A DNA stretch of 64,000 nt, taken from NCBI RefSeq assembly GCF_002367995.1, contig NZ_AP018207.1, positions 5,197,963 through 5,261,962 of the forward strand, in the 5' to 3' direction. Shown in pieces: positions 25,163-50,368 of the stretch. A model generated the notes under the pieces. It was not told where the DNA came from. It saw nothing but the letters and a program-made list of their open reading frames with translations, and ran no database searches. Numbering within the stretch: the stretch's first letter is position 1; every line of letters starts with the position of its first letter. The DNA is from Calothrix brevissima NIES-22. Its GTDB lineage: Bacteria > Cyanobacteriota > Cyanobacteriia > Cyanobacteriales > Nostocaceae. The position numbers and the translations under genes are program-made.

Positions 25163-25380
25163 CCAGATCCCCGACTTTTTCAAAAAGTCGGGGATCTAAA
25201 TGTAGATGCGGTTTCTAACCAGGGCTGTCATTAAATATTCGCTTGTTGGCGTTGATAAAGTGACCAGTACAAGCCTTTTTGCTGCAACAATTGCACATGG
25301 GTACCGCGTTCGGCAATAACTCCTTGTTCCATCACCAAAATTAAATCCGCACGTTTGAGGGGGGCGAATCGATGGGCGAT
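25163..25380. repeat. 218-bp tandem duplication, left copy (includes ABC transporter 3'-end fragment)
   Basis: Positions 25163-25380 repeat 25381-25598 at a constant offset of 218 bp with about five mismatches. Each copy begins with the palindrome AGATCCCCGACTTTTT...GGGGATCT and runs into the last 50 codons of the ABC transporter gene. In the left copy the coding fragment (25231-25380, minus strand, ending QQANI-like and stop) is cut off from the gene, so it is a dead piece. Confidence 0.9.
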
Positions 25381-39013: not shown

Positions 39014-39032
39014 TCAACAGTCATCCGTCAAC

Positions 39033-39217
39033 GGGAGCATCCCAAATGTGCAAAAACGCCCTCACCCTATAAGGGTGGGGCTAGAAATACGAAGCCTGCC
39101 TTCTTTTGCTAAAAGTTTGATAGCCTGCGTTCGTCGAAGACGTTCCCGAAGGGTAGGCAGGCTTTGTTGGTATAGCAATACCCTAGAAGGGTATTGCGTC
39201 AAAATTGGGATGCTCCC
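39033..39217. mobile_element. 185-bp MITE, copy 1
   Basis: Perfect 13-bp terminal inverted repeats GGGAGCATCCCAA / TTGGGATGCTCCC (39033-39045 and 39205-39217), flanked by the 8-bp direct repeat CCGTCAAC (39025-39032 and 39218-39225). Inner hairpins: CACCCTTATAGGGTG-like at 39063-39077, a 69-bp core bounded by GCCTGCC / GGCAGGC (39094-39162), and AATACCC TAGA AGGGTATT at 39177-39195. No coding capacity. The second copy is at 50101-50285, with the core inverted. Confidence 0.92.
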
Positions 39218-39252
39218 CCGTCAACCGTCAACCGTCAACCGTCAACAGCCAT

Positions 39253-49983: not shown

Positions 49984-50100
49984 TTTTCAGCGTAATTAAG
50001 GCTAATTCTGCAAATTCGCAAACAAAAGATTTTATCTCACAAAAACCTAGATAATCACAATAAATTGTGAATTCTGTCAATATCTCTAAATTGTAGAGTT

Positions 50101-50285
50101 GGGAGCATCCCAAATGTGCAAAAACGCCCTCACCCTATAAGGGTGGGGCTAAAAATACGAAGCCTGCCTACCCTTCGGGAACGTCTTCGACGAACGCAGG
50201 CTATCAAACTTTTAGCAAAAGAAGGCAGGCTTTGTTGGTATAGCAATACCCTTCTAGGGTATTGCGTCAAAATTGGGATGCTCCC
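50101..50285. mobile_element. 185-bp MITE, copy 2 (core inverted)
   Basis: Terminal repeats GGGAGCATCCCAA / TTGGGATGCTCCC at 50101-50113 and 50273-50285, flanked by a perfect 8-bp target duplication GTAGAGTT (50093-50100 and 50286-50293) in unique DNA. The outer arms match copy 1 in the same orientation, while the 69-bp core 50162-50230 is the exact reverse complement of 39094-39162. The loop of the AATACCC hairpin is reversed as well. Confidence 0.95.
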
Positions 50286-50368
50286 GTAGAGTTCACAATT
50301 TATAAATTGCTGGCGCTGACAAAATACCATTTTATCCACTGCTGATTAATTTTTAGGAAATCTAAATC

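Follow-up and report, generated by a model that had tools for sequence, protein, structure and literature searches.

How can the middle of a short repeated element come to lie back to front when its ends have stayed as they were? The question is raised by two copies of one element in the window, the 64,000-nucleotide stretch of Calothrix brevissima NIES-22 DNA analyzed here. Alignment of the two copies, each 185 bp long and in the same orientation, identifies them as one element, and the core of the first copy is the exact reverse complement of the core of the second over 73 bp (Table 1). The preliminary description had placed this inversion at 39094-39162 against 50162-50230, which is correct, the exact inversion being 4 bp longer. 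Because the inverted match is exact over 73 bp, chance is excluded. As they stand, the two copies are mismatched at 39 positions; with one core inverted, they differ at 4 of 185, which bears out the earlier claim that the outer arms share one orientation and are nearly identical. Three of the four residual differences form the loop of the right hairpin, AGA in one copy and TCT in the other between arms GCAATACCCT and AGGGTATTGC, so that the flipped loop previously given as TAGA against TTCT is also real; the remaining difference is a G/A change at a single position. Both copies are intergenic, the first with an ADP-ribosylglycohydrolase gene on one side and the cutA gene on the other, the second with a Roadblock/LC7 gene on one side and a protoglobin gene on the other.

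Table 1. Coordinates, in window positions, of the two element copies and their parts.
Feature	Position	Strand	Basis
MITE copy 1, 185 bp, core orientation 1, locus L001	39033..39217	+	alignment, extraction, target-site duplication
8-bp target-site duplication CCGTCAAC of copy 1, left	39025..39032	.	
8-bp target-site duplication CCGTCAAC of copy 1, right	39218..39225	.	
Terminal inverted repeat GGGAGCATCCCAA, left; contains mini-hairpin GGGA[GCA]TCCC	39033..39045	+	
Terminal inverted repeat, right	39205..39217	-	
Left hairpin CACCCT[ATA]AGGGTG, 6-bp arms	39063..39077	.	
Invertible core of copy 1, outer arms AAGCCTGCCT / AGGCAGGCTT, 10 bp	39092..39164	+	
Inner spacer AAAAGTTTGAT, 11 nt	39111..39121	+	
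28-bp loop in place of 4-nt loop (+24 bp)	39129..39156	+	
Right hairpin GCAATACCCT[AGA]AGGGTATTGC, 10-bp arms; loop 39185-39187	39175..39197	.	
MITE copy 2, 185 bp, core in opposite orientation	50101..50285	+	
8-bp target-site duplication GTAGAGTT of copy 2, left; right copy 50286-50293	50093..50100	.	
Invertible core of copy 2	50160..50232	-	
Right hairpin of copy 2, inverted loop TCT (50253-50255)	50243..50265	.	

A mobile element built of nested hairpins

Copies of the element were collected by a pattern search with its 13-bp terminal inverted repeat (TIR), which gave 96 matches in the 9.26-Mb genome, followed by extraction. Forty-six copies with both ends are present in the genome, and these were combined with 4 incomplete or altered copies into a comparison set of 50. 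Most copies are 185 bp (22 copies) or 161 bp (21 copies) long, and lengths of 160, 132 and 130 bp also occur. An exact 8-bp target-site duplication flanks 34 of the 46 two-ended copies; a further 4 have a duplication matching at 7 of 8 positions, 3 have a 9-bp duplication, and 5 have none that is clear. For the first window copy, an empty site was found in two of seven genomes of the same genus (G004 and G006), where the flanks lie approximately 20-30 bases apart and the element is absent; the other five show the left flank only, among the matches listed. Short, multicopy, bounded by TIRs and by target-site duplications of fixed length, and matched by an empty site in relatives, the element is a MITE, that is, a non-autonomous transposable element, and it is built of nested hairpins.

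The element has one hairpin on the left and one on the right, with a compound core between them, and other genomes in the family contain elements of the same plan with diverged sequence. The core of the 161-bp form is made of two hairpins (arms AGCCTGC/GCAGGCT, 4-nt loops) that flank the 11-nt spacer AAAAGTTTGAT, with one hairpin arm degenerate in some copies. One of the core loops is 24 bp longer in the 185-bp form, and the 130- and 132-bp copies have a single simple hairpin where the core would be. The sequence of the lengthened loop, GTTCGTCGAAGACGTTCCCGAAGGGTAG, recurs in at least 14 of the 58 relatives searched, with matches that are confined to query positions 95-137 and are mostly 93-100% identical (some 89-91%). 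Because of this recurrence, the loop seems, judging by sequence, to be a small dispersed repeat lodged in a hairpin loop. A related insert occupies the corresponding hairpin at four loci (L087-L089 and L092) of G021, the sole genome of its genus, which hints that hairpin loops may be favored landing sites for small dispersed repeats. At another locus of that genome (L091, contig C23), the core of a related element contains an inverted copy of the element's own flank (TTTGTTCGTGTAGC), which looks like the product of an incomplete template switch.

In the sequence read on either side of solitary TIR copies, no transposase gene was recognized, and the TIR searches made, which were non-exhaustive, returned no TIR pair 1-2 kb apart. 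A 38-base pattern comprising the left arm and the start of the core had no match among genome contigs, nor did the element have one among plasmids, in search sets from which this genome or its near relatives may be absent. The letters of the TIR likewise gave no match in a text search of the literature. Short elements in other genomes (L074 and L081) carry the same terminal repeats (GGGAGCATCCCAAATGTG / GGGAGCATCCCAATYTTG) around different interiors, and therefore one unknown transposase may mobilize several MITE families. In one copy (L051), the left part is broken by other sequence that leads into a related, diverged element, an arrangement suggestive of a nested insertion or of a hybrid.

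Orientation states and their dependence on arm length

When the cores of the 50 copies are classified without regard to orientation, four of the types occur in both directions (9 versus 7, 4 versus 2, 2 versus 1, and 3 versus 1 copies). In the last of these, an inversion of the core and an inversion of just the spacer give identical sequences, and core inversion is thus distinguishable in at least three types. Core inversion is seen again in G021, where the whole core of L087 is inverted relative to that of L088: 15 of 42 positions differ when the two are compared directly, and 3 differ after inversion. Among copies of a single core type that occurs in both orientations, the outer arms are the same or 1-2 bases apart. 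The preliminary description had considered that the copies might fall into two old subfamilies with fixed orientations and diverged arms. The result is the opposite, and we reject that possibility given that both orientations occur inside single core types and that near-identical copies show mixed states.

Inversion was also observed at levels inside and beside the core, each time with the arms kept. The spacer alone is inverted between L053 and L040, which have an arm mutation in common, and between L035 and the core of L010 taken in inverted form; each comparison gives 7 differences, all of them inside the spacer. Small inner loops occur in both states (AA/TT and CTTC/GAAG) between matching flanks. 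The right loop reads TCT in 39, AGA in 13, TTT in 1 and TAT in 1 of the 54 right hairpins of this genome (divergent subfamily counted), and both states with matching flanks are found again in G021 and in a further genome, G062. Core, spacer and loops have therefore been inverted separately, which supports the earlier proposal that nested palindromes switch independently by way of their own inverted repeats. As in spacer inversion, the segment is an exact reverse complement between unaltered arms, and the flips recur across core types.

We found no inversion at any level in a divergent subfamily (7 copies, 6 of them from 10 stretches plus L054), which may be very young. The state of the right loop shows no association with the strand of the element (Fisher p = 0.75, 52 hairpins), and a replication-direction bias, as judged by element strand, was accordingly set aside. 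The idea that the core is a separate small element inserted in either direction is not favored, since the spacer and loops flip too; moreover, the 24 full-length core matches listed, from 40 of 79 candidates scored, are all at places of the element. A second, different repeat in the window, at 25172 and 25390, has the form CAGATCCCCGACTTTT[TCA or TGA]AAAAGTCGGGGATCTA; its loop differs in one central base, which is compatible with either a flip or a substitution.

We compared the flips with substitutions in 15 full copies that were selected for having the same, identical core, using the 109 bases outside the core and the right loop. These bases contain 9 substitutions in the 15 copies, or approximately 0.55% per site and copy. 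Nonetheless, all four combinations of core direction and right-loop state are represented (3, 3, 5 and 3 copies, with 1 more copy having TTT; Fisher p = 1). The 7 copies that lack any substitution outside the core and loop are distributed among three states (3, 2 and 2). Mixed states among near-identical copies indicate that flips are recurrent, unless copies often recombine with each other; any count of independent flips presupposes little recombination between copies.

The hairpins of the element differ in arm length, and so does their behavior. The left hairpin, with 6-bp arms, is inverted in 0 of 46 copies (loop ATA in 45, AGA in 1). For the terminal mini-hairpin, no inversion is seen at the 89 ends at which its arms are 4-7 bp, and one is seen among the 4 ends (L043) at which flanking sequence lengthens the arms to at least 8 bp, the 93 ends read including both ends of one locus (L045 = L203) counted twice. 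The flip at L043 must have come after insertion, because target-site sequence is needed for the 8-bp stem. The spacer flip between L040 and L053 took place between arms of 7 bp. The arm-length limit is therefore soft, with most flips at 8 bp or more and some at 7.

Inverted loops at unrelated hairpins in sister genomes

Hairpins that do not belong to the element were compared between two sister genomes, G003 and G005, in stretches amounting to approximately 121 kb of alignment at 95.3-95.8% identity. We considered hairpins with perfect arms that are conserved between the genomes and with loops of 2-20 nt. Where the arms are at least 10 bp long, 3 of 10 loops are inverted, two of them exactly and the third, a 13-nt loop, with one mismatch. 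The proportion is 1 of 38 orthologous hairpins for arms of 8-9 bp, 0 of 89 for 7 bp and 0 of 299 for 6 bp (0 of 388 for 6-7 bp together), 1 of 1098 for 5 bp and 0 of 4309 for 4 bp, which makes 1 of 5795 for all arms shorter than 8 bp. The single case with 5-bp arms is a 2-nt inversion and may be due to chance. A further apparent exact flip, TTGGGGGA, was dropped as a mis-paired repeat. At the four long-armed flipped sites, the contexts match between the two genomes; three of these sites are crossed by no open frame of more than 64 codons, whereas the fourth has one of 93 codons and lies approximately 20 bases after a tRNA-Arg gene.

As a control, we examined mismatch clusters regardless of arms in three stretch pairs; exact inversions were not in excess among them, with 16 clusters inverted against 26 reversed and 4 complemented. 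The inversion effect therefore depends on the arms. In another pair of genomes, G007 and G001, no inversion was found within 8 kb of alignment. The element and the sister-genome hairpins together indicate that flip frequency rises with arm length and that flipping has no sequence preference, on the basis of few long-armed cases (10 + 38 G003/G005 hairpins).

We consider it probable, at roughly 0.78, that replication template switching inverts the segments between inverted-repeat arms in this nested-hairpin MITE. A growing strand that is copying one arm would jump to the matching arm of the opposite strand, copy the loop or core backwards, and return to its own template within the other arm, so that the arms would be left unchanged and the intervening segment inverted. 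Each pair of arms of approximately 7 bp or more would act independently, which would account for the separate flips observed in the core as a whole, in its spacer and small loops, in the right loop and, in one instance, in the loop of the terminal repeat. We infer both these steps and their occurrence in ordinary replication. Template switching is favored because it predicts unchanged arms, an inverted segment, dependence on arm length, the lack of a sequence preference, and recurrence.

One alternative would retain template switching at palindromes and move it from normal replication to transposition, or to repair of the donor gap after excision. It draws on the fact that states differ among insertions with few or no substitutions, from which it follows that flips are frequent relative to mutation. 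However, the flip at L043 required flanking sequence for its stem and so postdates insertion, and hairpins outside the element flip in place between sister genomes. We therefore regard this alternative as improbable. We judge it equally improbable that gene conversion or recombination between copies has redistributed a small number of old flips. Such reshuffling could also yield all of the observed combinations of core direction and right loop, but the core is inverted in at least three distinguishable core types and again in G021, the spacer-only flips and the terminal flip at L043 each require a separate event, and the flipped G003/G005 hairpins are not copies of the element.

Two mechanisms had been proposed in the preliminary description, template switching at hairpins and a recombinase, and it is the former that our data support. 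A site-specific recombinase recognizing the AAGCCTGCCT repeats could be imagined to invert the core in the manner of a phase-variation switch, given that short perfect inverted repeats lie at the core ends and that both orientations are common. Loops of 2, 3, 4 and 11 nt flip too, however, some of them between arms unrelated to the core arms, and unrelated hairpins in the sister genomes also flip. A recombinase that occupies both arms is not known to be able to invert a segment of 2-3 nt. A site-specific invertible switch, with one pair of sites and a segment of synapsis length, is largely refuted by the 2-3-nt loops, and we consider a recombinase very unlikely. An artefact of assembly or sequencing is just as implausible: hairpins are difficult to sequence and G003 is a draft of approximately 160 contigs, but the genome studied here was assembled into 9 contigs, one of them 8.5 Mb long, and usual reads are long in comparison with arms of 7-20 bp.

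With template switching as the preferred reading, there remains the matter of how fast the element flips. In a rough comparison made with no formal calculation, the MITE looks to flip more per substitution than the long-armed G003/G005 hairpins. Inheritance from flipped source copies or small numbers could explain such an excess, which plain in-place flipping does not. A bolder proposal, which we hold to be doubtful, treats the element as a self-scrambling cassette, in which inversion of the nested hairpins so outpaces point mutation that a mixture of states exists within clones and polyploid filaments. Under this proposal, the element might even flip more than ordinary hairpins because its three adjacent hairpins jointly stall the replication fork, and the copies would be built-in reporters of the strand switches that occur at such forks.

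Relation to known inversions at inverted repeats

Measuring template switching at short inverted repeats is difficult, since each event is rare and unique. The element described here offers approximately 50 near-identical copies with varied arm and loop lengths, and its left (6-bp) and terminal (4-bp) hairpins serve as built-in negative controls, so that both the dependence on arm length and the frequency of flips per substitution become measurable in a bacterium. In practice, the orientation of their loops is a poor guide to the classification of repeats of this kind. Kelchner and Wendel in 1996, and Kim and Lee in 2005, reportedly described small hairpin-associated inversions in chloroplast DNA. 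Our observations raise the question of whether the small inversions of chloroplasts are a trait held in common with cyanobacteria. We found no report of loop inversion in cyanobacteria in the titles and abstract openings covered by our search, with the subscription literature lying mostly outside it.

Chloroplast DNA undergoes small inversions of 4-50 bp, which are likely aided by hairpins according to a review (PMC12371153). The flips reported here resemble them in being short inversions attributed to hairpins; the chloroplast inversions of that review were found by comparing plants, whereas here a single genome supplies approximately 50 copies that serve as replicates. In Escherichia coli, template-switch mutation at quasipalindromes involves imperfect inverted repeats (PMC7202029, as summarized there), and it shares with the process proposed here a template switch at hairpins in bacterial replication. 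Template switching has also been linked, in the summary of another study, to both the making and the mending of hairpin stems (PMC8794818). The Nezha elements are introduced as MITEs of cyanobacteria (PMC3733652); both they and the element described here are cyanobacterial MITEs.

The closest parallel is found in yeast, where the spacer of inverted repeats is inverted by intermolecular template switching, only with arms of more than 9 bp, and where parallel and reversed events have been described (PMC8604942). As in that account, the inversions in the element are exact and recurrent, occur between perfect arms, and depend on arm length. In that study (PMC8604942), the yeast hairpins are single ones located within genes, and 2-5 bp of the spacer are substituted. 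In contrast to yeast, the inversions here occur at several nested levels of a repeated mobile element, with at most 53 nt between 10-bp arms, and in a bacterium. Thus, the process itself, inversion of the spacer between inverted repeats, is known, and the element is a new and unusually rich example of it, one that is unusually informative because nested hairpins of graded arm length recur approximately 50 times in one genome.
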